In this document: positions 16,566-47,191 of the stretch, one piece after another | How positions within the stretch are numbered: position 1 is the first letter of the stretch | Layout of the letters: each line of letters opens with the position of its first letter | From: Nocardia wallacei | GTDB lineage: Bacteria; Actinomycetota; Actinomycetes; Mycobacteriales; Mycobacteriaceae | Assembly: GCF_014466955.1 (NCBI RefSeq) | Contig: NZ_AP023396.1 | Span: forward strand, 7,626,001-7,690,000 | Direction of reading: 5' to 3' | Length of the DNA stretch: 64,000 bases | Program-made: the position numbers and the translations under genes | Notes under the pieces: model-generated | What the model saw: the letters and a program-made list of their open reading frames with translations, nothing else | Database searches by the model: none | What the model was told of the DNA's origin: nothing

Positions 16566-16652
16566 ACGTCAGGCACGACAAAGTGTTAGTGCCGGTTCAG
16601 AGCGAGCGCGTCTCGTGCGGCGGGAAGGCGGTTCACACCGGAGAATGTCGGG

Positions 16653-17795
16653 ATGACGAGCGGGGTGGCGCGGCGGGTGATCCTGGCGCCGGACAAGTTC
16701 AAGGGGTCGTTGACGGCTCCCGAGGTTGCCGGGGCGCTGGCCGCGGGGATCGAGCGGGCGGCGCCGGACGTGGAGGTGGTGGCGGTGCCGGTGGCCGATG
16801 GCGGCGACGGGACCGTCGACGCGTTCGTGGCCGCCGGGTGGGAGCCGGTACCGGTGCGGGCGGAAGGGCCTACGGGGGTGGTGGGTGATTCGGTGTACGC
16901 GGTGCGGCGTGGTGCTGCCGGGCGGCCCACCGCGGTGATCGAGCTGGCGCGCGTGGTGGGCCTGGAGCGGCTGCCCGACGGCCAGCCGGATCCGTTGCGC
17001 GCGAGCACCTTCGGCCTGGGCCGGGTGATCGCGCACGCGCTCGATCGAGGCGTGCGCGATATCGTGCTCGGCGTCGGCGGGAGCGCGTCCAGTGACGGCG
17101 GCGCGGGCATGTTGCAGGCGCTGGGGCTGCGGATTCTGGATGCGCACGGCGAGCAGGTGCCGCCGGGTGGCGCGGCGCTGGCCCGAGCGGAGCGAGTCGA
17201 GCGGTCCGGCCTGCATCCCGCGCTGGCCGACACCTCGTTCACCCTCGCCAGCGATGTGGACAACCCACTGCTCGGCCCGCACGGCGCGGTGGCGGTCTTC
17301 GCACCGCAGAAGGGCGCCGACGCCGACCAGCGCGCCACTCTCGAAGCGGCCCTGGCCAATTGGGCGAAGCTGATCGACCCCGGGTGCGCGGAGCGGCCCG
17401 GCGCGGGTGCGGCGGGAGGCACGGGATTCGGCGCGATGGCCGTGCTCGGCGCGGTGGAACGCCCCGGCATCGACGTCGTGCTGGACCTGATCGATTTCCG
17501 AACCCTGGTCCGCGCAGCCGAACTGGTCGTCACCGGTGAGGGATCCCTCGATGACCAAACCCTGCGAGGCAAGGCCCCGATGGGCGTCTGCGCCGCCGCC
17601 CGCGCTGCCGGAATCCCGGTGGTCGCCGTCGCGGGCCGCTGTCTGCTCTCCGAATCCGAGCTGCGCACAGCCGGTTTCGAGGCGGCCCTCACCCTCACAG
17701 ATCTCGAACCCGATCCGGCCCGATCCATCGCCCACGCCGCCCCGCTGCTGGAACGCCTGGGTGCCACCCTGGCCGACCGCTGTTTGCGGCGCTGA
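16653..17795 (+). CDS. glxK: Glycerate kinase
   Basis: 380-residue GarK/GlxK-type kinase that phosphorylates D-glycerate to a phosphoglycerate with ATP. The N-terminal signature APDKFKGSLTAPEVAGAL and VADGGDGTVDAF are diagnostic, as is the central LGVGGSASSDGGAGMLQALG and the late VVTGEGSLDDQTLRGKAPMG. Length matches the family. It is the only sugar-acid gene nearby, but glucosylglycerate hydrolase at 36.3 kb would release glycerate, giving a plausible metabolic link within this window. A GGAG element lies nine bases before ATG 16653. Confidence 0.93.
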   Translation: MTSGVARRVILAPDKFKGSLTAPEVAGALAAGIERAAPDVEVVAVPVADGGDGTVDAFVAAGWEPVPVRAEGPTGVVGDSVYAVRRGAAGRPTAVIELARVVGLERLPDGQPDPLRASTFGLGRVIAHALDRGVRDIVLGVGGSASSDGGAGMLQALGLRILDAHGEQVPPGGAALARAERVERSGLHPALADTSFTLASDVDNPLLGPHGAVAVFAPQKGADADQRATLEAALANWAKLIDPGCAERPGAGAAGGTGFGAMAVLGAVERPGIDVVLDLIDFRTLVRAAELVVTGEGSLDDQTLRGKAPMGVCAAARAAGIPVVAVAGRCLLSESELRTAGFEAALTLTDLEPDPARSIAHAAPLLERLGATLADRCLRR

Positions 17796-17827
17796 CACCC
17801 TGAACATGGCGTGCGCCCGCCCGTGAG

Positions 17828-17833
17828 TAGCTT
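17828..17833 (+). promoter_or_regulatory. -10 box, leaderless start of methyltransferase
   Basis: TAGCTT followed by 7 nt (CTCGGGT) and ATG at 17841. Confidence 0.6.
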
Positions 17834-17840
17834 CTCGGGT

Positions 17841-18710
17841 ATGGACAATGACGGACCCAGCCGGACGGCGCTCGTCACCGCCTATGCCCGTGCCTACCAT
17901 CAGATCGCCGACCAGCCGCGCATTCTCGCCGATCCGCTGGCGGCACGGCTGCTGGATGTCACGGTCGATGAGCTGAACGAATTGGGCCGCCCCGGGGAGA
18001 GTGGCCGCGAGGAAATCCTGCGGCTGGGTGTCGGTGACCGGCCGCGCCGCCTGTTCTTCGCCGCTCGCGGCCGTTTCGCCGAGGATCGGGTGGCCGCGGC
18101 CGTCGGCGCGGGTGTGCGGCAGGTCGTGATCCTGGGCGCGGGGCTGGATACCTTCGCCTACCGTCATTCGCATTCCGGCCTGCGGGTATTCGAGGTCGAC
18201 CATCCCGCTACCCAGGCGTGGAAATCGGAACGCCTCGCGGCATCGGGTATCGACCTGCCCGAGGGGTTGTCCTTCGTACCGGTCGACTTCGAAACCGACA
18301 CGCTGGCAACACGATTGGCGGACGCCGGATTCAGCCGGAGCGATTCGGCGGTATTCGTGTGGCTCGGTGTCGTCTACTATCTGACCCCGGACGCCGCCGA
18401 CGGCACCCTCGATTACATTGCGCGGCAATCGGGATCGGTCGAGGTGATCTTCGACTATCTCGCGGACACCGACGAGGATCGAGCGCAACTGCGGGCGCGT
18501 GCGGAGCGCGCGGCGGCTGTCGGTGAGCCGTGGTTCAGCTACTTCGCTCCCGACGACATCGCCGCTCGATTGCGCGCACTCGGCTTCACCGACGTCGAAG
18601 ACCACGCCGCTACGGACCTCATCGCCGGGTACCTCGGTGACTCCGCGGAATTCGAGGGCGAGCCACCCCAGGCGTTGCGCCCGGTCCGCATCCTACGAGC
18701 GAGCCGCTGA
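17841..18710 (+). CDS. Class I SAM-dependent methyltransferase (TIGR00027 type)
   Basis: 289 residues, the leucine-carboxyl-methyltransferase-like family very abundant in mycobacteria and nocardiae. The SAM-binding motif VVILGAGLDTFAYRH and the following acidic VFEVDHPATQAWK are diagnostic; the N-terminal RTALVTAYARAYHQ and DPLAARLL also match. Substrate unknown. The ATG 17841 start is chosen over GTG 17811 because of the TAGCTT box. Convergent with the hydrolase gene, 23 bp apart. Confidence 0.9.
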   Translation: MDNDGPSRTALVTAYARAYHQIADQPRILADPLAARLLDVTVDELNELGRPGESGREEILRLGVGDRPRRLFFAARGRFAEDRVAAAVGAGVRQVVILGAGLDTFAYRHSHSGLRVFEVDHPATQAWKSERLAASGIDLPEGLSFVPVDFETDTLATRLADAGFSRSDSAVFVWLGVVYYLTPDAADGTLDYIARQSGSVEVIFDYLADTDEDRAQLRARAERAAAVGEPWFSYFAPDDIAARLRALGFTDVEDHAATDLIAGYLGDSAEFEGEPPQALRPVRILRASR

Positions 18711-22353: not shown

Positions 22354-22944
22354 ATGGCGCGTTCACCCCGCTACCCCAGCGATGGGGCCGATACGCAGCC
22401 CTCGCGCAGCCGCGTTCCCGCACTGCCCGCCGACGACGGCGATCCGGTCCAGGCGGAATTGCTGCGGGCGTTGTACGACGAGCACGGCGCCGCGCTGTGG
22501 CGCTACACCTACAGCCTCGTCCGCGATTCCGGCCGCGCCGAGGACATCGTGCAGGAGACGCTGCTGCGGGCCTGGCAGCGGCCGCGTGTACTCGACCAGT
22601 CGACGGCGTCGGCGCGGGCGTGGTTGTTCACCGTGGCCCGCAACATGGCGGTGGACGAGTATCGCAGCGCCCGCCACCGGCGGGAGTACCGCACCGACAA
22701 GCCGCCGGAACTGGCGACCCCCGATCAGGCGGACCGCGCCCTGGACGGGTGGCTGATCGCCGATGCGCTGGCCCGGCTCAGCACCGACCACCGCGAGGTG
22801 ATCGTGCGTGCTTATTACCGTGGCCTGTCGACACATCAGATCGCGACGGAACTGGCCATACCGGAGGGCACCGTGAAGTCCCGGATGCACTACGGCATGC
22901 GGGCGCTGCGTTCGACACTGACGGAGATGGGGGTGACGAAGTGA
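22354..22944 (+). CDS. sigL: ECF RNA polymerase sigma factor SigL
   Basis: 196 residues. Region 2 is ALYDEHGAALWRYTYSLVRD, then AEDIVQETLLRAWQRPR and AWLFTVARNMAVDEYRSARH; region 4 is LSTDHREVIVRAYYRGLSTH followed by QIATELAIPEGTVKSRMHYG. The sequence runs closely parallel to M. tuberculosis SigL (Rv0735), including the LIADALARLS link, and it is followed by an RslA-like anti-sigma gene as in that species. SigL there controls membrane and envelope genes. No clear SigL-type -35/-10 pair was identified in the short upstream gap. Confidence 0.93.
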   Translation: MARSPRYPSDGADTQPSRSRVPALPADDGDPVQAELLRALYDEHGAALWRYTYSLVRDSGRAEDIVQETLLRAWQRPRVLDQSTASARAWLFTVARNMAVDEYRSARHRREYRTDKPPELATPDQADRALDGWLIADALARLSTDHREVIVRAYYRGLSTHQIATELAIPEGTVKSRMHYGMRALRSTLTEMGVTK

Positions 22945-23696
22945 CGGAGACCGCGCACGCGGCGGAGCCCGAGGGCGACGACTACGCGACGTGGGACGGC
23001 CCGTATGTGCTCGGCGCCCTCGGCCGCGACGATCGGCTGGAGTACGAGGAGCATCTGGCGGTGTGCCCGTCGTGCCGGGCGGCGGTGGCGGAGCTGGCCG
23101 GATTGCCCGGACTGCTCGGGCAGGTGGATTCCGGTGTGGCGCTGTCGTTCATCGATCCGATCGCCGGACCGCCCGAACGGTCGGGTGCGGCGGTTCCCGA
23201 GATCCCCGAGCCGCCGCCGGTCGCGCTGGCCCGGCTGGCGGATCGGACCCGGCGGCAACGGCGGCGCGGGCGGATGGTCGCGGTGGCGGGTGCGGTGGTG
23301 GCGGCGGCCGCCGCGGTGGCCGTCACGATCCCGGTGACGGCCTCGCTGAACGAGCCCGCCGCGCCGCCGCCCGCCGCCGAAGTGGTGGCCGAGCGCAGTA
23401 TGGTCGCGGTGGTGCCGTCGCCGATCACGGCCAGTTTCCGGCTGGTCGCGGTGCCGGACGGGACGCGGGTCGAGATGTCGTGCAGTTACGCGCCGTCGGA
23501 CACCCGGTACACCTGGCAGGGCTCGATGTGGGTGGTGCATGCCGACGGCACCCAGTCGATGATCGCGCAGTGGACCGCCCGGCCCGGCGAGACGGTGGCT
23601 CCGAACGGCACCACCGCCGCCGCGCCGGATCAGGTGCGCTCGGTCGAGATACGTTCCGCCGCGACGAATCAGGTGATGCTCAGCAGCAGCCTGTAG
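22941..23696 (+). CDS. rslA: Zinc-type anti-sigma factor RslA
   Basis: 251 residues. The N-terminal cytoplasmic domain carries the ZAS zinc motif HxxxCxxC as EEHLAVCPSCRAA (residues ~35-45), which binds and releases the cognate sigma factor in redox-sensitive fashion. A single transmembrane helix follows (MVAVAGAVVAAAAAVAVTIP), then an extracytoplasmic region ending near residue 251 with a SigK/RskA-like C-terminal domain (FRLVAVPDGTRVEMSCSYAP). GTG 22941 overlaps the sigL stop (GTGA), indicating coupled translation. Confidence 0.93.
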   Translation: MTETAHAAEPEGDDYATWDGPYVLGALGRDDRLEYEEHLAVCPSCRAAVAELAGLPGLLGQVDSGVALSFIDPIAGPPERSGAAVPEIPEPPPVALARLADRTRRQRRRGRMVAVAGAVVAAAAAVAVTIPVTASLNEPAAPPPAAEVVAERSMVAVVPSPITASFRLVAVPDGTRVEMSCSYAPSDTRYTWQGSMWVVHADGTQSMIAQWTARPGETVAPNGTTAAAPDQVRSVEIRSAATNQVMLSSSL

Positions 23697-23708: not shown

Positions 23709-24185
23709 TCACAGCAGGATCAGGGCCACGCACAGGGACGCGACGGCGAGGGCCTGCAGGCCGACCCGGAACCCGAGGATGCTGTCCCATTCGTCTTGCA
23801 GCGCACGGGCGTTCGCGGGAATGACGCCGGATTGCGCGGCCGCCGTCTGCGCCGTGTTGATCGGCTTGGCGACCCGGACGTAGAAGCCGAGCCACGTCAC
23901 CAGCGCGACCAACGCGACGCCCGCCGCGATCGCCGCCGCGCCCGCACCCGCCAGGACGGCGGCCACGATCGTCAGCACGGTGGCGATCACGCCGCCCGCG
24001 CCCGCGAACGGCATGCGACGGTCTCCGTAGTAGTGGCCCCAGCCCGCGAACTTCGTCACCGACGCGTCGTCGAGGTGCCGGAACACCGACCGCGTGATGA
24101 GGGCGGCCGACGTGTCGGTGCCGTAGACGATGCCGTTGGCGAGTACGGCGGCAACGGCGAGGACCTGGGCTGTCGTGGTGAGCAT
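23709..24185 (-). CDS. DUF1772 (anthrone-oxygenase-like) membrane protein
   Basis: 158 residues with four hydrophobic helices. The first has the family's start VLAVAAVLANGIVYGTDTSA; others are GVIATVLTIVAAVLAGAGAA and LVALVTWLGFYVRV followed by KPIN, and a helical C-terminus. DUF1772 proteins include integral-membrane anthrone-oxygenase-like enzymes, but most have no known role. Shine-Dalgarno GGAG/AGGAGAAG precedes ATG 24185. Two perfect 15-bp palindromes upstream indicate tight repression by an unlinked regulator. Confidence 0.85.
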   Translation of the reverse strand: MLTTTAQVLAVAAVLANGIVYGTDTSAALITRSVFRHLDDASVTKFAGWGHYYGDRRMPFAGAGGVIATVLTIVAAVLAGAGAAAIAAGVALVALVTWLGFYVRVAKPINTAQTAAAQSGVIPANARALQDEWDSILGFRVGLQALAVASLCVALILL

Positions 24186-24205
24186 CTGCTTCTCCTACTC
24201 CAAAA

Positions 24206-24220
24206 TCTAGCGGCGCTAGA
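24206..24220. promoter_or_regulatory. Perfect palindromic operator 1 (TCTAGCGGCGCTAGA)
   Basis: 15-bp perfect palindrome immediately upstream of the DUF1772 start. Its mirror-centre variant lies at 24257-24271, centres 51 bp apart. Confidence 0.75.
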
Positions 24221-24256
24221 TGTTGGTGAGGAGCGTAGCAAGGCGACGTTAGGTTG

Positions 24257-24271
24257 TCTAGCGCCGCTAGA
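24257..24271. promoter_or_regulatory. Perfect palindromic operator 2 (TCTAGCGCCGCTAGA)
   Basis: Same palindrome as at 24206-24220 except for the central base. It ends 4 bp from the stop of the aminotransferase gene. Two sites about five helical turns apart could support looping or cooperative binding. Confidence 0.75.
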
Positions 24272-24274
24272 TAT

Positions 24275-25429
24275 TCAGGCGTCCCACCCATTGCCCGCTG
24301 TGGACGGCACCGTCAGCGCGCACAGCCCGCTGTCCTCGCCCACCGTGCGGCCGTGCGGTCCGCCGGGTAACGGCGGTCCGCCCAGCGCGCGCCGGACCGC
24401 GGCGTCCGCGGCGCGATCACCGACGGCGATGCGTGCGCTGCCGTCCGGGAACGTCTTCGCCGCGATCCCCGCGCGGGCCAGCCTGGCGGCGATATCCGCG
24501 CCCGGCAGATAGAGGAAGTTCGCGCGACTGCGTGGTACTCGGATTCCGTTGCGGCGCAGGGCCGTACGAAGCAACTCGCGTTCGGTGGTGATACGCAGCA
24601 CCCGTTCGCCCAGCTCCATCCGCGCGGCGAACGAGGCCGACACCGCCGCGACCGCCGTCTCGGGCACGCCGAACGGCAATTGCAACCGGCGCACCCGCCG
24701 CACCAGATCCGGGTGGCCGAAGGCGTATCCGATGCGCATTCCGGCCAGCCCGTACGCCTTCGAGAAAGTGCGCAACACCAGTAGGTTCGGATAGCGCGAG
24801 ACGAGTTCCGCGGCGTCGAGAATATCGGCGGCGCCGAGGAATTCGACATAAGCCTCGTCCAGGATCACCGGCACGTCGCGCGGGATGCCGAACAGGAATG
24901 CCTTCAGTTCACTGGCCGAGGCCACCGTGCCGGTCGGATTGTGCGGGCGGCACACCGTGACCAGGCCGGTGCGCGGGCCGACCGCACGACCCAGTGCGGC
25001 GAGGTTCTGCCGTCCGCGCGCATCCAGCGGTATCGCGACGGGTGTCAGCCCGGCCATATCGGCGAGGATGGGGTAACCGTCGAAAGTCGGTGTGGCGAAG
25101 ACCATCTCCGCACCGCGGCGGGTCAGGGTCTGCATGATCTGCAACGCCACCCCGGTCGCCCCCGAACCGACCACCACCTGATCGGTCCGCACGCCGAGTT
25201 GCTCGGCGATGAGCCGCGGCAGCCGGTGCGGCAGGAATTCCGGATACCGGTTCGCCCGCGACAGTGTGTGCTGGATCGCGTCGAGCACGGAAGGCAGTGG
25301 CGGGAACGGGTTTTCGCTGAGGGACAGATCGAAGCGCACCGACCCCGGCTCGTGCCACAGCGCCGCGCGCCGCTCGGACAGCGTCGCGGGCTCGGTGTGC
25401 CGCAACGAGATCGACCGGCTGCCGCTCAT
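24275..25429 (-). CDS. HisC-like PLP-dependent aminotransferase (biosynthetic locus)
   Basis: 384 residues, fold type I aminotransferase close to histidinol-phosphate aminotransferases. PLP-binding features: VVVGSGATGVALQ, CRPHNPTGTV (Asn164), DEAYVEF (Asp191) and the Schiff-base Lys224 in RTFSKAYGLAGMRIGYAFG. ATG 25429 overlaps the stop of the KAS III-like gene (ATGA), so it is the fourth cistron of a coupled operon. With no his genes nearby and a ketosynthase/ThDP context, it more likely aminates a biosynthetic keto intermediate than histidinol phosphate; the substrate is unproven. Confidence 0.88.
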   Translation of the reverse strand: MSGSRSISLRHTEPATLSERRAALWHEPGSVRFDLSLSENPFPPLPSVLDAIQHTLSRANRYPEFLPHRLPRLIAEQLGVRTDQVVVGSGATGVALQIMQTLTRRGAEMVFATPTFDGYPILADMAGLTPVAIPLDARGRQNLAALGRAVGPRTGLVTVCRPHNPTGTVASASELKAFLFGIPRDVPVILDEAYVEFLGAADILDAAELVSRYPNLLVLRTFSKAYGLAGMRIGYAFGHPDLVRRVRRLQLPFGVPETAVAAVSASFAARMELGERVLRITTERELLRTALRRNGIRVPRSRANFLYLPGADIAARLARAGIAAKTFPDGSARIAVGDRAADAAVRRALGGPPLPGGPHGRTVGEDSGLCALTVPSTAGNGWDA

Positions 25430-26472
25430 CGGGCGGCTCCCCAGCGCACGGCCGCCGCGGCGGCGAAATCCCCGGCGTGCGCGAAGGCCGACAGCAGTAC
25501 CACCGAGCCGTTGCGCAGCCGCCCCGCCCGGTTCTCGGCGTCCAGAGTGACGGGAATGCCCGCGGCGAACAGGTTTCCGCACTGGTCGAAGGTGTCGGGG
25601 TGACGCTCGGCGGGCAACTCGAGCGCGTCGTGCCAGTTCCGCAGGAACAGCCGGTTGGGCTGGTTGGTGACGAAGGTGTCGATGTCGCGGCCCTTCACGC
25701 CGATCCGTTCGCACACCGCCAGCGCCACCTCGGGCACCAGCCGGTTGCCGCGGGCGAACACCTTGGTGATGCGGGATTCGCTGAAACTGACGCAGCCCTG
25801 GCCCTCGCCCGGTTCCCAGTACTTGCGATCGGAGCCGGTGGTGAAGTCCATGTCGCCCGCGAATTCGGGGTAGGTGCGGGATTCGATGTCCAGGATGGGG
25901 GCGGCGTCGTTCTTCAGCAGCAGCCCGACGCCGCAACCGTCACCGGGCACCGGGGCCTGGGCCAGTCCGCGAATCTCGGTCTGGGTGAACACCGGGCCCG
26001 CGGTGTTCTGCACGGTCGCGATCAGCGCGCTGCGGGCCGCGGTGGTCTGCAGGATCATCCGGGCCAGCGACATCATGTGCACGAACGCCGCGCAGCCGCC
26101 GTTGTGCACGTCGAATACCCAACCCGGTCGCATACCGAGCCGCCGCGCCACCTCCGGACCCGCGCCGAGCACGGGGTTGGTCGGCAGCTGGGTATGGGTG
26201 ATCAGCACATCGATGTCCGAGATCGTCTGCGCCCCATGGCGTTCGATCAGTGGCGCGACGGCCTGCTCGACCATGTCGACCGCGGTCTCGTCGCGTCCGG
26301 CGTGGTGGCGGGCCTTGGGCGCCCGGAACATCACGTTCTTCGCCATCCGCTCGGAACGGGAGAAGCGCGTGAAGTACTCGGTGCCGACCGGATCGCCGGG
26401 CAGGTAGGAGGCCACGTCGGCCAGGCTGACGGGCGGCAACGCGGGTGCGGTTTCGGTGGATGCCATCGACAT
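25426..26472 (-). CDS. KAS III-like (3-oxoacyl-ACP synthase III family) enzyme with His-to-Asn change
   Basis: 348 residues, thiolase fold of the FabH group. The nucleophile Cys127 is in VFDVHNGGCAAFVH. Where FabH has PHQAN, this protein has FVTNQPNRLF, so the catalytic His position is Asn270; the third residue Asn300 is kept (QCGNLFAAGIP). Loss of the His that drives decarboxylation suggests an acyltransferase or non-decarboxylative condensation, as in other FabH-like biosynthetic enzymes. ATG 26472 lies 3 bp past the SRPBCC stop; ATG 26466 has better Shine-Dalgarno spacing. Third gene of the four-gene operon. Confidence 0.87.
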   Translation of the reverse strand: MSMASTETAPALPPVSLADVASYLPGDPVGTEYFTRFSRSERMAKNVMFRAPKARHHAGRDETAVDMVEQAVAPLIERHGAQTISDIDVLITHTQLPTNPVLGAGPEVARRLGMRPGWVFDVHNGGCAAFVHMMSLARMILQTTAARSALIATVQNTAGPVFTQTEIRGLAQAPVPGDGCGVGLLLKNDAAPILDIESRTYPEFAGDMDFTTGSDRKYWEPGEGQGCVSFSESRITKVFARGNRLVPEVALAVCERIGVKGRDIDTFVTNQPNRLFLRNWHDALELPAERHPDTFDQCGNLFAAGIPVTLDAENRAGRLRNGSVVLLSAFAHAGDFAAAAAVRWGAAR

Positions 26473-26475
26473 GCC

Positions 26476-27135
26476 TCACTTCATCCAGTCGGGTTTGATC
26501 GGCAGTTCGTTGGCGGCCCGGTACTCACAGATCGCCTTGAGGTTGTCCAGTTCGAGCTGGTGGCCGGCGGAGAACATCTCCCAGAAGTCGCCGACCCAGA
26601 CCGGGCGCTTCGGCGGTGCCGCCTCGGGATAGGGATTCTCGTCGTAGAACGGGTGGTGGCAATTCGTCCACAGCACTACCGAACCCGGCTTGTTGAAGAC
26701 CACCTGGGCGTCGACCACGCGCATCAGGTACACCATCCACAGGTGCTGGCCCTGATCCCAGGCGCAGTGGTAGTCGACCGTCATGGCGTCCGGGTTGGCG
26801 ACCGTGCGGGTGAAGATCTTGGTCTCCGGGCCCAGCCGGTCGTAGGCCAGCCAGAGCCCCGGCTCGTCCGTCTCGACGAATCCGCGCAGGCTGTAGGTCC
26901 ATTCCTCCAGGCTGCGGGTGTCGGCGAGATAGTCGTAGACCGCGCGCGGCGGTGCGTCGATGTAGGCCTGCACCGGGCAGAATTCGCCGTAGATCTGATC
27001 GTGCGGATACACCGAACGCAGCATGTCCATGATGACCGGCGTGGTCGCCTCGCGATCGGAGTTCTCGATGCGCAGCACGCCCGGCAACTCGTGCTCGGGG
27101 ATATCGCTGAGCGCGGGCAGGGAACTGGTGGTCAC
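26476..27135 (-). CDS. SRPBCC (START/cyclase-like) domain protein
   Basis: 219 residues; the central part looks like a helix-grip SRPBCC/START fold: VQAYIDAPPRAVYDYLADTR followed by SLEEWTYSLRGF, with a Trp/His-rich second half (LWTNCHHPFYDENPYPEAAP). Such proteins bind hydrophobic ligands and in biosynthetic clusters act as aromatase/cyclases or chaperone intermediates. Here the role is inferred from position between the ThDP and KAS III-like genes. GTG 27135 has Shine-Dalgarno GGAGGAA and overlaps the ThDP-enzyme stop by 4 bp. Confidence 0.82.
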   Translation of the reverse strand: MTTSSLPALSDIPEHELPGVLRIENSDREATTPVIMDMLRSVYPHDQIYGEFCPVQAYIDAPPRAVYDYLADTRSLEEWTYSLRGFVETDEPGLWLAYDRLGPETKIFTRTVANPDAMTVDYHCAWDQGQHLWMVYLMRVVDAQVVFNKPGSVVLWTNCHHPFYDENPYPEAAPPKRPVWVGDFWEMFSAGHQLELDNLKAICEYRAANELPIKPDWMK

Positions 27136-28850
27136 GGGTTCCTCCTCGGAGTCGACAGAAACGGGGTGAACGGCGGGATCTCGTCCGGATCGCAGTCGAT
27201 CGAGACGAACGACGGCCCGGGGGTCTCGAAGCAGCCGGCCAGGACGGCGGTCAGCTCGCCCGGGTCGGCGGGCGAATAGGACGGCAGCCGCGGGAACATC
27301 GCGGCCAGCCCCGCGCCGAGCCGCGCGGGGTGGAAACGGTTGAAGCTGTAGCGGTCTCCGTAGTACAGCTGTTCGCGAGTGACGCACATGGCATGTGCGT
27401 TGTTGTTGAGCACGATGAAGGTCACCGGCAACTCGTGCTCGATCGCGGTGTGGATTTCCATGCCGTGCATGAAGAACGCACCGTCACCGGCGACCACGAC
27501 GGTCCGACGCACCCCGCCGTCGGGACGCCGCCGCCGCGCGCAGGCCGAGCCGATGCCCGCGCCGAAGGCATACCCCATCCCGCCCATGCCGAGCGCCACG
27601 ACGAACCGGCCGTCGCGGGGCAGGCGCAGGTGGTGCACCACCGACGCGCCGGTATTCCCGGCATCGGCGAACACGTCGGTCCCGGGTTCCAGTGCGGCGT
27701 TGAGGGTTTCGACGATGTCGCGATAACGCAGGCCGGGGCCGGTGGCGGGTGGCACCTCCAGTGCGGTGAGCAGGCGCGGCGGCGGGGCCGAGAAGGCGGC
27801 GTCGGTATCCGGCACCGGCAGGAGCTCCCGAGCGACGGGCGACTCCCCCGCCGGGTGGTCGACAAGTTCGGCGAGCACCGCCTTCAGGTCGGTGGCGTTG
27901 GCGTGCAGCGCGTCCGGGTAGGGCGGTTCGGCGCCCACGCTGGCGACCGCCGTCCGGGCCAGCGCGTCCTCCAGCCCCGCCCGTGCGGTGATCGGCATGC
28001 GGGTACCGACCAGCAGGCACAGCGCCGAGCGGCGCACGGCGTCGACCAGCTCCGGGTGGCCCATGCTGCCGGACACCCCGCAGAAGCCCGGCTCGCTCTG
28101 GTCGTAGACGTCCTTGGCGTCCGGAGCCACACCCACCGCCGCGTCGAGAACCGTTGCCAGCTGCCGCAATTGGGCTCTGGCGTCGCTGCGGGCGACCTGA
28201 TCCCCGGCGATGATGGTGATCTTGCCGGTCGCCCGCGCCGATTCCAGCGCCGCCCGTACCCGGATCAGACCGGCCTCGTCGCGGGTGTGCGCGGGCAGCG
28301 GTGGCCGGAACGGCGGGAGGTCACCGGCGTCGGCCTGCTGGACATCCTTGGGCAGCAACAGCACCGCGGGCCCACCGCCGCGGGCGGCGGTGATCGCCCG
28401 GTTCAGCTGCCCGGATAGCGATTCGACCGTGTCCACTCGCGCGCAGTAATGTGCGACCTGCTCGAAAAGTCTTGTCGCGTCGAATGTTCCGGCGAGGCCA
28501 CTGGTGTCCTGGAACGCGCCGCGGCCCGCCAGCGCGGTCGGCGGCTGCCCGACCAGCGCGAGCACCGGAACCCGCGAGGCGAACGATTCGGCGAGTCCCG
28601 CAACGAGATTCATCGCTCCCCCGCCGGAGGTGGCGCAGACGACGCCGAGCCGTCCGCTGCTGCGCGCGTAGCCGTCGGCCATGGTGGCGGCGGAGAACTC
28701 GTGCTTGGCCACCACACCCGTAATGTCCTGCGGCGTATCGAAAATCGCGTCGTAGAGGTCTTCGATGTTGGCGCCGTCCACCCCGAAGATGTGCCGAACT
28801 CCCAGCGCCCCTACGGCTCGCACCAGATAGTCCACCGTTCGTGACGGCAT
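27132..28850 (-). CDS. ThDP-dependent enzyme of acetolactate-synthase type
   Basis: 572 residues in three canonical domains. The N-terminal pyrimidine domain has the activating Glu51 in VVAKHEFSAATMADGYARSS; a middle TPP-M domain follows; the C-terminal domain carries the ThDP motif from VVVAGDGAFFMHGMEIHTA to IVLNNNAHAMCV (GDG...NN). Likely activity is decarboxylation of a 2-oxo acid and carboligation of the acyl anion to an acceptor. No ilvN small subunit or ilv genes are near, so it is unlikely to serve branched-chain synthesis. AAAGGAG precedes ATG 28850; it is the first gene of the operon. Confidence 0.9.
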   Translation of the reverse strand: MPSRTVDYLVRAVGALGVRHIFGVDGANIEDLYDAIFDTPQDITGVVAKHEFSAATMADGYARSSGRLGVVCATSGGGAMNLVAGLAESFASRVPVLALVGQPPTALAGRGAFQDTSGLAGTFDATRLFEQVAHYCARVDTVESLSGQLNRAITAARGGGPAVLLLPKDVQQADAGDLPPFRPPLPAHTRDEAGLIRVRAALESARATGKITIIAGDQVARSDARAQLRQLATVLDAAVGVAPDAKDVYDQSEPGFCGVSGSMGHPELVDAVRRSALCLLVGTRMPITARAGLEDALARTAVASVGAEPPYPDALHANATDLKAVLAELVDHPAGESPVARELLPVPDTDAAFSAPPPRLLTALEVPPATGPGLRYRDIVETLNAALEPGTDVFADAGNTGASVVHHLRLPRDGRFVVALGMGGMGYAFGAGIGSACARRRRPDGGVRRTVVVAGDGAFFMHGMEIHTAIEHELPVTFIVLNNNAHAMCVTREQLYYGDRYSFNRFHPARLGAGLAAMFPRLPSYSPADPGELTAVLAGCFETPGPSFVSIDCDPDEIPPFTPFLSTPRRNP

Positions 28851-28977
28851 CGAGACTCCTTTCGGCCGGGCACTCGAGCGCCCGATATCGGTCCGCTCTG
28901 CCCCGAGATACGAGCGGCGCCCCGCGATGGTTCATCTCCGGCCGCGCATCGGCCGCGTGGCGGTTTCCGGGGAGCGC

Positions 28978-29006
28978 TTGTGTGTATGTATACGTCTACG
29001 TATAGT
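28978..29006 (+). promoter_or_regulatory. Promoter of EXLDI gene with overlapping palindrome
   Basis: TTGTGT (28978-28983), 17-bp spacer, TATAGT (29001-29006), then 6 nt and ATG 29013. A perfect palindrome TATACGT-CT-ACGTATA (28989-29004) covers the spacer end and the first four bases of the -10. It is an ideal site for repression, probably by the ribbon-helix-helix protein encoded directly downstream. Confidence 0.75.
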
Positions 29007-29012
29007 GGAGCC

Positions 29013-29534
29013 ATGCCCAACAAGACGGTGTACGTGTCCGATGACGATCTTCCCCTGTTCCAGCGCGCGCAGGAGCTGGTCGGCGGAAACCTGTCGGGCG
29101 CGATCGTGACGGCACTGCGGCGGTTCATCGAACTGGAGGAGGGCCGGCAGCAGGGCTTCGAAGAGGTCGTCCTGCGCGTCGGGCACAACGGCGCCCGGCA
29201 GGTCCGGTTCTCCGGCGCCCTGCTGGGCGAGATGAGCGACCTGAACGACCGCCACCAGCAGCACATCCGCGTCTACCGCAGCCGCAAGGGCAAATTCGTG
29301 CTGCACATGCGGACCTCGGCCTGGGAGGACTACCCCGCCGACACCAGCACCAACTGGATCAAGGATCTGACCAACTGGCGCAAGCTGCTCGGCGTCGGCG
29401 AACCGGAATGGGGCGAGTTCACCATCGACATCTACGACTCGGTGACCGATCTGAAGGGGAGGATTCCGAAGGCGCTGTATCAGCGAGTGACCGACATCGT
29501 CGAGCACCCGCAGATCGAGGATCTCGACATCTGA
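29013..29534 (+). CDS. EXLDI family protein with N-terminal ribbon-helix-helix
   Basis: 173 residues. The C-terminus is exactly E-D-L-D-I, the tag that names the EXLDI family (TIGR04342-type proteins of actinobacteria, often beside ABC exporters). The first ~45 residues read as a MetJ/Arc ribbon-helix-helix: KTVYVSDDDLPLFQRAQELV, then GGNLSGAIVTALRRFIE. The middle carries FEEVVLRVGHNGARQVRFSG, typical of the family. It is therefore probably an autorepressor whose sensor domain responds to the exported compound. ATG 29013 is leaderless by promoter spacing. It is followed by the DrrA/DrrB-like exporter genes. Confidence 0.9.
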   Translation: MPNKTVYVSDDDLPLFQRAQELVGGNLSGAIVTALRRFIELEEGRQQGFEEVVLRVGHNGARQVRFSGALLGEMSDLNDRHQQHIRVYRSRKGKFVLHMRTSAWEDYPADTSTNWIKDLTNWRKLLGVGEPEWGEFTIDIYDSVTDLKGRIPKALYQRVTDIVEHPQIEDLDI

Positions 29535-29656
29535 TCGCGGCCGGGCGCGAGCCCGGCTCCCGCACAAGCGAATAGGACCACACCTTGACCACCGCACAGT
29601 GGTCACGGCTCGGTCGACGCATGCATTGATTCATATCTGTTGATGAGAGGACAGTG

Positions 29657-30613
29657 ATGAAAAACGGATATCCCCCGCCGGCCATCTCGGTCACCGGCCT
29701 GCGGAAATCCTTCGGGGAACAGGTCGTGCTCGGCGGCATCGACCTGACCGTCGGCGAAGGCACGATCTTCTCGCTGCTCGGCCCCAACGGCGCGGGCAAG
29801 ACCACCACCGTGCAGATCCTGTCGACGCTGCTGCGCGCCGACGGCGGCGAGGTCCGGGTCGGCGGGCACGACATCGCCGGTGATCCGGACTCGGTGCGGG
29901 CCGTGATCGGCGTGACGGGCCAGTTCTCCGCGGTCGACGAGCTGCTGACCGGCCGGGAGAACCTGCTGCTGATGGGCGACCTGCAGCATCTGCCGCGCAG
30001 CGAGAGCAAGCGCCGCGCCGACGACCTGCTGACGCGATTCGACCTGGTCGAGGCCGCCGACAAGGTGGCGGGCGCCTACTCCGGGGGCATGACCCGGCGA
30101 CTGGACCTGGCCATGACACTGGTCGGCGATCCACAGGTGATCTTCCTCGACGAACCCACCACCGGACTCGACCCGCGCAGCCGCCGCGCCATGTGGGAGA
30201 TCATCCGCGAACTGGTCGCGGGTGGCGTGACGGTCTTCCTCACCACCCAGTATCTGGAGGAGGCGGACCAACTGGCGGACCGGATCGCGGTCCTCGATCA
30301 CGGCCGCATCGTCGCGCAGGGCACGCCCGAGCAGTTGAAGCGGCTCGTGCCGGGCGGGCACATCAGATTGACCTTCGCCGATCGCGCCACCCTGGACATC
30401 GCCACCCAGTTGCTCGGTGGCGTGCCACAGCCCGAGGACCCGACACTCGCGATTCCCGGCGACGGCAGCGTGCAGACGCTGCGCGCACTGCTGGACCGGC
30501 TCGACACCGCGGGGATCGAACCCGCGGGCCTGGCCGTGCACACCCCCGATCTCGACGACGTATTCCTCGCTCTCACCGGACAATCCGTTCCCGAAAAGGA
30601 AATCGCGCAATGA
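29657..30613 (+). CDS. DrrA-like ABC exporter ATPase
   Basis: 318-residue daunorubicin-resistance-type ATPase. Walker A GPNGAGKTTT, Q-loop VTGQFSAVDELLTGREN, signature YSGGMTRRLDLAMTLVG, Walker B VIFLDEPTTGLDPRSR, H-loop TTQYLEEADQLADRI (the common TQYLEEA variant) and a C-terminal DrrA-type extension. ATG 29657 is preferred to GTG 29654 because of GAGAGG spacing. It shares a start/stop overlap with the permease. Probably exports the product of the divergent biosynthetic operon. Confidence 0.94.
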   Translation: MKNGYPPPAISVTGLRKSFGEQVVLGGIDLTVGEGTIFSLLGPNGAGKTTTVQILSTLLRADGGEVRVGGHDIAGDPDSVRAVIGVTGQFSAVDELLTGRENLLLMGDLQHLPRSESKRRADDLLTRFDLVEAADKVAGAYSGGMTRRLDLAMTLVGDPQVIFLDEPTTGLDPRSRRAMWEIIRELVAGGVTVFLTTQYLEEADQLADRIAVLDHGRIVAQGTPEQLKRLVPGGHIRLTFADRATLDIATQLLGGVPQPEDPTLAIPGDGSVQTLRALLDRLDTAGIEPAGLAVHTPDLDDVFLALTGQSVPEKEIAQ

Positions 30614-31386
30614 GTACCGCCACCTACGCGCTGGCCGACACGGCCACCATGCTGCGCCGGAACATCGTGCACGCCAAGCGTTATCCGGCCATGACGATCA
30701 TGCTGGTCGCCATGCCGCTGGTGCTGCTGCTGATGTTCAACTACGTATTCGGCGGCGCCTTGGAGAAATCGCTCGCCGCGGGCGAGAAGTACATCGACTA
30801 CATCGCCCCGGGCATGATCCTGATGGTCCCCGCGCTGCTGGTCACCTCCGTCTCGGTGTCGGTGGCGACGGATATGACCAAGGGCATCGTCAACCGGTTC
30901 CGCACCATGTCGATGTCGCATTCGTCGATACTCACCGGCGAGATACTCGGCACGATGATCCAGGGGATGCTGGGTGTTGCCCTCATGGTGGGGGTGGCGC
31001 TGCTGCTCGGATTCCGCCCGAACGCCGACGCGATCGAATGGGTGCTCGCCCTCGGCCTGCTGGTCCTGGTGCTGTTCGCATTCAATTGGCTCGGAGCGGG
31101 TTTCGGCCTGGCGGCCGCGTCTCCGGAGGGCGCGAGCAACACGCCCACCCCGGTCGTCTACCTGCCGATGCTCGGCAGCGGCCTGGTTCCCACCGACACC
31201 ATGCCCGCCGGCGTGCGCCACTTCGCCGAGTACCAGCCGTTCACCCCGATCACCGAGACCCTGCGCGGCCTGCTCATGGGCACCGAGATCGGCAACAACG
31301 GCATCATCGCCCTCGGCTGGTGCGCGGCCATCGCGGCGGTCGGATATCTCTGGGCGAAAACCACATTCCGCCGCAAGACCGCCTGA
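30610..31386 (+). CDS. DrrB-like ABC-2 permease
   Basis: 258 residues, membrane partner of the DrrA-like ATPase. Helices include MTIMLVAMPLVLLLMFNYVF, YIAPGMILMVPALLVTSVSV, MLGVALMVGVALLLGF, and LALGLLVLVLFAFNWLGAGF; the conserved late EYQPFTPITETLRGLLMG closes the domain. ATG 30610 overlaps the ATPase stop (ATGA). Gene is convergent with the HAD gene, 1 bp between stops. Substrate inferred as the local small molecule. Confidence 0.93.
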   Translation: MSTATYALADTATMLRRNIVHAKRYPAMTIMLVAMPLVLLLMFNYVFGGALEKSLAAGEKYIDYIAPGMILMVPALLVTSVSVSVATDMTKGIVNRFRTMSMSHSSILTGEILGTMIQGMLGVALMVGVALLLGFRPNADAIEWVLALGLLVLVLFAFNWLGAGFGLAAASPEGASNTPTPVVYLPMLGSGLVPTDTMPAGVRHFAEYQPFTPITETLRGLLMGTEIGNNGIIALGWCAAIAAVGYLWAKTTFRRKTA

Positions 31387-45965: not shown

Positions 45966-46066
45966 TGCTCCTCCTCGCGGTATCGATGCGTCGCAGGCGA
46001 GGCTACCCGCCCGGGCAGTAGGATTCCGCTCTGCGGCCGCGCCGCGGCACCCTCTACTCGGATCGT

Positions 46067-46084
46067 CCGGCACGTTCCTGCCGG
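46067..46084. promoter_or_regulatory. Inverted repeat upstream of sugC-like gene
   Basis: CCGGCA-N6-TGCCGG about 20 bp before ATG 46103. A possible operator or leader hairpin. Confidence 0.35.
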
Positions 46085-46102
46085 TGAAGGGATTGATTCA
46101 CG

Positions 46103-47191
<1,089 letters not shown>

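Follow-up and report, generated by a model that had tools for sequence, protein, structure and literature searches.

The window analyzed in this study is a stretch of 64,000 nucleotides from Nocardia wallacei (contig NZ_AP023396.1, positions 7,626,001 to 7,690,000). It carries a compact reverse-strand operon of four genes, which encode a thiamine diphosphate (ThDP)-dependent carboligase, an SRPBCC cyclase, a ketoacyl synthase III (KASIII)-like condensing enzyme and a pyridoxal phosphate (PLP)-dependent aminotransferase. Genes for an EXLDI protein and an ABC exporter start divergently on one side, and a sigma/anti-sigma factor gene pair lies on the other (Table 1). Genes were called with a simple GC-frame script. 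A preliminary description had presented the seven genes from aminotransferase to permease as an apparently undescribed locus for biosynthesis, export and regulation. Its coordinates, junctions and divergent gap all proved correct when read directly from the sequence; the SigL/RslA-type pair at 22354-23696 lies outside these coordinates.

Table 1. Features of the operon and its surroundings; positions are those of the window.
Feature	Position	Strand	Evidence
Extracytoplasmic function (ECF) sigma factor, SigL homolog	22354..22944	+	6dv9 SigL E 3.4e-60; NF007227 244.8 vs cut-off 202
Zinc anti-sigma factor, RslA-like	22941..23696	+	3hug_B E 5e-16; zf-HC2
PLP aminotransferase, class I/II	24275..25429	-	PF00155
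KASIII-like condensing enzyme, CqsB1 type	25426..26472	-	ACP_syn_III_C
SRPBCC cyclase, CqsB2 (carbazole synthase) homolog	26476..27135	-	GTG start
ThDP-dependent carboligase, CqsB3/NzsH type	27132..28850	-	TPP_enzyme N/M/C domains
SigL-type promoter-like element TGAACC-N16-CGT of the operon	28910..28934	-	strict match
Palindrome TATACGTCTACGTATA in the shared gap, proposed EXLDI operator	28989..29004	.	kept upstream of EXLDI genes
EXLDI protein, proposed repressor	29013..29534	+	TIGR04342, 113.1 bits vs cut-off 32
DrrA-type ABC ATPase	29654/29657-30613	+	TIGR01188, 319 vs cut-off 312.45 bits
ABC-2 permease, DrrB-like	30610..31386	+	PF01061

The operon is tightly packed. The GTG start of the SRPBCC gene overlaps the ThDP gene stop (GTGA), 3 bp separate the SRPBCC and KASIII-like genes, and the junction between the KASIII-like and aminotransferase genes is an ATGA overlap. 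Gaps of at most 20 bp recur between the ThDP and SRPBCC genes in 97 of 108 loci, between the SRPBCC and KASIII-like (KAS) genes in 107 of 108, and between the KAS and aminotransferase genes in 90 of 97. Since the EXLDI gene starts at 29013(+), the divergent gap to the ThDP gene (28851-29012) measures 162 bp. Gene content was compared over 80 loci, those kept of 487 confirmed stretches, which were chosen by their SRPBCC gene and counted only where the contig was long enough. Here the SRPBCC gene is accompanied by the ThDP gene in 78/78, the KAS gene in 79/79 and the aminotransferase gene in 74/75 loci. The idea of a co-produced enzyme set for a heterocycle is borne out by this co-conservation of the four genes over Nocardia, Rhodococcus and further genera. 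Our searches share loci, and the 200 and 190 alignment rows referred to below are rows, not independent genomes.

For the cyclase, the sole sequence match in the PDB is the carbazole synthase CqsB2 (6ipv, E 5.7e-47). Its structure model, with a predicted local distance difference test score (pLDDT) of 86.9, retrieves 6ipv at the top of a fold search (E 7.4e-19, next 4.7e-6); as the root-mean-square deviation of this match is large (16.3 over 206 columns), E-value and sequence were given more weight. A review of carbazole biosynthesis (PMC7466098) proposes roles for Glu105, Tyr144, Tyr172, His206 and Glu209 of CqsB2. Four of these five residues are identical in the window's cyclase, and Glu105 is replaced by Asp. 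The five columns read Asp-Tyr-Tyr-His-Glu in 183 of 190 aligned rows and Glu-Tyr-Tyr-His-Glu in five, namely CqsB2 and four Cqs-type loci; the remaining two rows are cut off. Identity to the Cqs type amounts to 39-44%. None of the other three operon proteins is as well conserved as the cyclase. The ScyC model matches it weakly, with 21.8 bits and thus far under the cut-off of 400 bits.

The ThDP enzyme possesses Glu51 and a GDG..NN motif and is 34-37% identical to the Cqs type, which it matches with 190-227 bits, compared to 115-127 bits for the two best paralogs of its own genome. In a tree it clusters with the Cqs-type ThDP enzymes, apart from these own-genome paralogs (SH-aLRT 99), and its PDB neighbours are BbmA and CsmA, for which no explanatory publication came up. 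A plain acetolactate synthase was rejected (205.5 bits against a cut-off of 538; nearest is the Cqs type). The KASIII-like enzyme scores 111-120 bits to Cqs-type KAS proteins and 38-60 bits to the three FabH-type proteins encoded elsewhere in the genome. Its tree places Cqs-type and operon-type rows together, apart from four own paralogs; this tree is weak, because two distant paralogs sit on very long branches, one of them inside the operon group. The catalytic triad is Cys127-Asn270-Asn300. Cys-Asn-Asn instead of Cys-His-Asn is found in 195 of 200 rows, four Cqs-type rows keep the His, and one row is gapped at the Cys.

The aminotransferase carries Lys224 in the motif SKAYGLAG, and its nearest PDB match is a putative phenylalanine aminotransferase (E 1.7e-52). 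It had been called HisC-like; it belongs to class I/II and scores under the HisC cut-offs. A housekeeping HisC was discarded; an own-genome paralog is 40% identical. We propose that it takes the CqsB7 role and converts tryptophan to indole-3-pyruvate.

The operon is spread more widely than the preliminary description suggested. The cyclase was found in 154 of 401 sampled family genomes and 16 of 31 genera, three hits being weak (E 2e-4 to 8e-4); Nocardia contributes 39 of 52 and Tsukamurella 15 of 16 sampled genomes. A cyclase of one type or the other was found in 25 of 295 Streptomyces genomes, in five of them that of the Cqs type; one genome carries both types (L151 and L180). Some loci have neighbours of their own, named here by eye. 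The Rhodococcus aetherivorans operon (L052) is followed on the same strand by P450-like and MmpL-like proteins, possibly for tailoring or export. In group g9, which lacks a sigma pair adjoining the operon, one operon (L116) is preceded on the same strand by AMP-ligase-like and GMC-oxidoreductase-like proteins, possibly for tailoring or export. A histidine-kinase-like gene is divergent from the ThDP gene in L113, L115 and L145, adjoined by a response-regulator-like gene in L113 and L115.

Concerning regulation, the best PDB match of the sigma factor outside SigL reaches no better than E 1.7e-16, and the zinc CXXC motif of the RslA-like protein reads HLAVCPSC. RslA of M. tuberculosis is zinc-bound, and its oxidation yields a disulfide at the CXXC motif and weaker sigma binding (PMC2877774). 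The gap upstream of the ThDP gene contains a strict promoter-like element (Table 1). Its TGAACC..CGT form fits what we take to be the SigL consensus. Of 68 distinct loci in which a sigma gene is no more than 12 genes away, 53 have TGAACC-N15-17-CGT 5' of the ThDP gene (expected 0.38). When spacers of 14-19 are admitted, the element precedes 59 of 120 ThDP genes (expected 0.7), 24 of 71 sigma genes (expected 0.42) and 2 of 190 SRPBCC genes (expected 1.18), and none of 200 KAS, 166 aminotransferase, 67 LeuS, 65 YqgE, 65 EXLDI or 65 DrrA genes. Expected counts derive from single-base shuffles for the 14-19 spacer scan and from two-base-block shuffles for the 15-17 scans. A second strict TGAACC-N16-CGT, at 16575-16599(-) near the end of the open reading frame 16569-18605, is probably due to chance. 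Of the Nocardia genomes tested, 8 of 14 with the operon and none of 13 without it have a close SigL homolog (E <=1e-40; Fisher p 0.0019); the operon-bearing set consists of the own genome and 13 genomes hand-picked from 38. We regard the adjacent SigL/RslA-type pair as the likely regulator of the operon; it is better supported than EXLDI, to which this part had been assigned and none of whose 65 scanned genes is preceded by the operon's element.

All four operon genes correspond to members of the known carbazole core: the ThDP enzyme to CqsB3/NzsH, the SRPBCC protein to CqsB2, the KASIII-like enzyme to CqsB1 and the aminotransferase, in its proposed role, to CqsB7. These four functions make up the carbazole core in the review, where the nucleus is made from tryptophan, pyruvate and an acyl thioester (PMC7466098). 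Thus, the locus can hardly be called undescribed, and the suggested parallel to the prodigiosin pair PigD/PigE is weaker than that to the carbazole core; we dropped it as all four genes have carbazole-core counterparts. With a probability of roughly 0.7, we conclude that the operon makes a carbazole core, namely a lipocarbazole-like 1-alkyl-2-methylcarbazole, and is redox-induced via the SigL-type pair. This reading is based on homology, the kept gene set, kept catalytic residues, the kept promoter element and the pattern of presence and absence; from these we infer the carbazole product as well as every reaction, the acyl donor, redox induction and export.

The proposed pathway would start with the aminotransferase converting L-tryptophan to indole-3-pyruvate. 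The KASIII-like enzyme would load an acyl group on Cys127 and condense it with a beta-keto acid under loss of CO2; because a beta-keto acid loses CO2 easily, Asn may suffice where KAS enzymes usually employ His. The SRPBCC cyclase would then close the new ring on the indole to give a 1-alkyl-2-methylcarbazole, oxygenated at C3 and perhaps C4. As no acyl carrier protein (ACP) or priming KASIII was recognised beside the operon, the acyl group is probably drawn from long-chain acyl-CoA or acyl carriers of the cell itself, and the product would therefore be a lipid-tailed antioxidant like the Tsukamurella lipocarbazoles. A long acyl donor is plausible, since Cqs enzymes reportedly accept 3-hydroxymyristoyl-CoA and the CqsB1-like enzymes of other carbazoles probably use acyl groups without the hydroxyl (PMC7466098). 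Upon oxidation, the zinc anti-sigma factor would release the adjacent SigL-type sigma factor, which would transcribe the operon. In Nocardia, the neighbouring, putatively EXLDI-controlled DrrAB exporter, a separable module, may export the product.

The same enzyme logic might serve another aromatic keto acid, with phenylpyruvate or 4-hydroxyphenylpyruvate being supplied and a naphthalene-type ring being built by the cyclase. The phenylalanine aminotransferase as nearest match of the aminotransferase, and a cyclase only about 40% identical to CqsB2, would fit such a substrate. However, ring closure by CqsB2 draws on the indole C2-C3 electrons (PMC7466098), the proposed catalytic residues of the cyclase are kept, and Tsukamurella has the core and reportedly makes carbazoles, which renders this alternative improbable. 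We consider it equally improbable that the KASIII-like enzyme, devoid of its His, just acylates the acyloin oxygen to yield acylated indole acyloins (lipid esters), with the SRPBCC protein as a binding or rearranging partner. Cys-Asn-Asn in nearly all KAS rows speaks for such an ester, as does the spontaneous conversion of the CqsB1 product to indole-containing esters (PMC7466098); yet no esterase-like partner was recognised, and the cyclase retains the residues proposed for catalysis and shows the strongest conservation among the four proteins.

Several observations weigh against a redox-induced carbazole operon. The KASIII-like enzyme is 24-27% identical to the Cqs type and has no catalytic His, so that it may perform a different reaction. 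Cqs clusters carry their own ACP and KASIII (PMC7466098), and neither of these (CqsB6, CqsB5) was recognised among the called neighbours, the whole window not having been domain-scanned. At four Tsukamurella loci examined (L129, L130, L135, L136) the operon is ThDP-SRPBCC-KAS without an aminotransferase. As to the promoter, 15 of the 68 loci that have a nearby sigma gene lack TGAACC-N15-17-CGT, 11 of 45 loci that have no such gene carry it (expected 0.17; some contigs are cut), and the strict element is missing 5' of the window's own sigma gene. Six of the 14 operon-bearing Nocardia genomes tested have no close SigL; hence, another control can replace SigL in some Nocardia.

The divergent EXLDI-DrrAB genes were previously described as a ribbon-helix-helix protein and a DrrAB-type exporter. 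EXLDI family membership is clear; the fold model is of low confidence (pLDDT 58) and proves nothing. DrrA passes the DrrA cut-off, DrrB misses the curated cut-offs of its best DrrB-type models (59.3 vs 146.9 and 44.9 vs 223.05 bits). The palindrome TATACGTCTACGTATA recurs upstream of EXLDI genes, exactly in 7 and in relaxed form in 37 of 65 cases, and is a plausible EXLDI operator. In the 80-locus set, nearly all Nocardia, EXLDI is found in 72/77, DrrA in 66/75 and DrrB in 61/70 loci. In L001-L080, 54 loci have yqgE upstream of the block DrrB-DrrA-EXLDI-ThDP-SRPBCC-KAS-aminotransferase and in the same orientation, and another 13 have it downstream and oppositely oriented, as though the entire block had flipped between yqgE-sigma and leuS.

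This adjacency, the joint orientation and the palindrome in the shared gap would suit a single seven-gene system, in which EXLDI would be dedicated to regulating the operon and export would depend on DrrAB. However, yqgE and leuS flank EXLDI (called in 5/6) and DrrA (5/6) in six operon-less Nocardia examined as well, where neither the sigma pair nor core genes were found at the yqgE-leuS site. With a threshold of E <=1e-100, DrrA is found in all 14 Nocardia genomes that bear the operon and in 12 of the 13 that do not; at >=69% identity, the counts are 12 of 14 and 8 of 13, respectively. A family model search detected EXLDI in 23 of 201 family genomes, operon-less Nocardia included, and EXLDI was found in none of 39 usable loci taken mostly from other genera. 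Together with the 65 EXLDI and 65 DrrA genes that lack the operon's promoter element, this makes a single seven-gene system the least probable of the alternatives. What remains of the combined unit in the preliminary description is that EXLDI-DrrAB adjoins the operon in most Nocardia loci. Because EXLDI-DrrAB persists in operon-less Nocardia and EXLDI was not found in the 39 other loci, the operon's link to the exporter is a trait of Nocardia and is not obligatory.

Further elements of the window were noted in passing. A small gene at 23709-24185(-) matched no Pfam or NCBIfam model, and two near-identical palindromes, TCTAGCGGCGCTAGAT and TCTAGCGCCGCTAGAT, lie at 24205-24272 between this gene and the aminotransferase stop. 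An msiK cis-regulatory RNA (RF01747, 51.3 bits, cut-off 33) is located at 46042-46099, directly 5' of the open reading frame at 46103.

SigL-like genes (E <=1e-30) are present in 131 of 148 genomes of group g29, i.e., Mycobacterium in the wide sense as assigned by protein identity. We inspected 40 hand-picked mycobacterial regions, in 38 of which a sigma gene was called. Twelve of the 38 contain sigL-rslA, three to four core genes and then a MarR gene, and six contain three to four core genes without MarR. Another 15 have sigL-rslA and MarR but lack any intact core gene, the gap being shorter than 70 bp in 11 of them, and one has a piece of the aminotransferase alone before MarR. Among the genes examined in the last four, neither core nor MarR was found; in L325 the cassette is located at a greater distance, and L315 represents the second sigma gene of a genome whose other sigma gene (L314) has the cassette. 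Clear remnants were recognised at two sites: L305 retains the first part of a ThDP gene (75% over 99 residues), and L294 retains pieces of the KAS tail and the aminotransferase. L316 and L332 show weak matches to the aminotransferase tail. The sigma/anti-sigma pair occurs twice in tandem at L307, L308, L309 and L325, in L307 and L308 directly before the cassette. The mycobacterial promoter pattern was widened to TGAAC[CTG]-N15-17-CGT after variants had appeared in the earlier TGAACC scan; it is found 5' of the ThDP gene in 17 of 18 loci (expected 0.08), 5' of the sigma gene in 29 of 38 (expected 0.38) and 5' of MarR in none of 28 (expected 0.3).

We interpret this mycobacterial pattern as repeated loss of the cassette from beside its regulator. 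A 2026 paper places rv0737 of M. tuberculosis, a MarR gene, immediately 3' of sigL-rslA (PMC13002591), which is the gene order of the empty sites. A more far-reaching proposal, for which we see about even chances, is that SigL-RslA-MarR arose as the dedicated redox switch of an operon for a lipid-tailed carbazole antioxidant, widespread in mycolic-acid bacteria, characterized by a Cys-Asn-Asn KASIII and repeatedly lost. Species with MarR directly after sigL-rslA, including M. tuberculosis, would then keep the regulator at an emptied site, and the operon family would be the missing lipocarbazole pathway. If these readings are true, a cassette of 39/52 Nocardia and 15/16 Tsukamurella genomes becomes a named, testable pathway, the lipocarbazoles gain a gene cluster, and the KASIII-like enzyme provides a naturally occurring example of condensation that dispenses with the usual catalytic His. 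The formation of antioxidants in lipid-rich cells would likewise become a tangible ancestral target of SigL-RslA.

Among known systems, the cores of carquinostatin (cqsB1, B2, B3, B7) and neocarazostatin (nzsJ, I, H) from Streptomyces resemble the operon in their adjacent homologous genes for the ThDP enzyme, SRPBCC cyclase and KASIII-like enzyme, in an aminotransferase of the same proposed role and in the kept catalytic columns of the cyclase. They differ in gene order, which is KAS-SRPBCC-ThDP in four callable Cqs-type loci and reversed here (ThDP-SRPBCC-KAS-aminotransferase), as well as in the His of the KAS, which is Asn here, and in their ACP/KASIII, prenyltransferase and P450 partners, none of which was recognised here. 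The chlocarbazomycin cluster chlCz of Streptomyces tubbatahanensis combines homologs of nzsH, nzsJ and nzsI with an aminotransferase annotated as histidinol-phosphate transaminase, and in contrast to our operon has an ACP gene and tailoring genes (PMC10100901). ThDP carboligation involving indole-3-pyruvate would be shared with ScyA/ScyC of scytonemin and the acyloin enzymes of sattazolin (PMC9822442). According to the review, the core is also held by Streptomyces cattleya, Sorangium and Scytonema; the word Nocardia is absent from it (PMC7466098).

The lipocarbazoles, 3-oxygenated carbazoles cited from Tsukamurella pseudospumae (PMC7466098) with a 1-alkyl-2-methylcarbazole frame (PMC11350554), come from a genus that holds this branch of the core; they differ in being known as compounds, and the four Tsukamurella loci are without an adjoining aminotransferase. 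No paper that names a lipocarbazole gene cluster was found in the open-licence literature, which omits most subscription journals. Compared to SigL-RslA-Rv0737 of mycobacteria, the window keeps SigL and RslA homologs, the zinc CXXC motif and the TGAACC..CGT element. The mycobacterial cassette is situated between rslA and MarR; the pair in the window differs in being convergent with the operon, on its other side. Judged by sequence, the conserved operon is of a known pathway type in a new, distinct branch, and its position and promoter link it to a known redox regulator.

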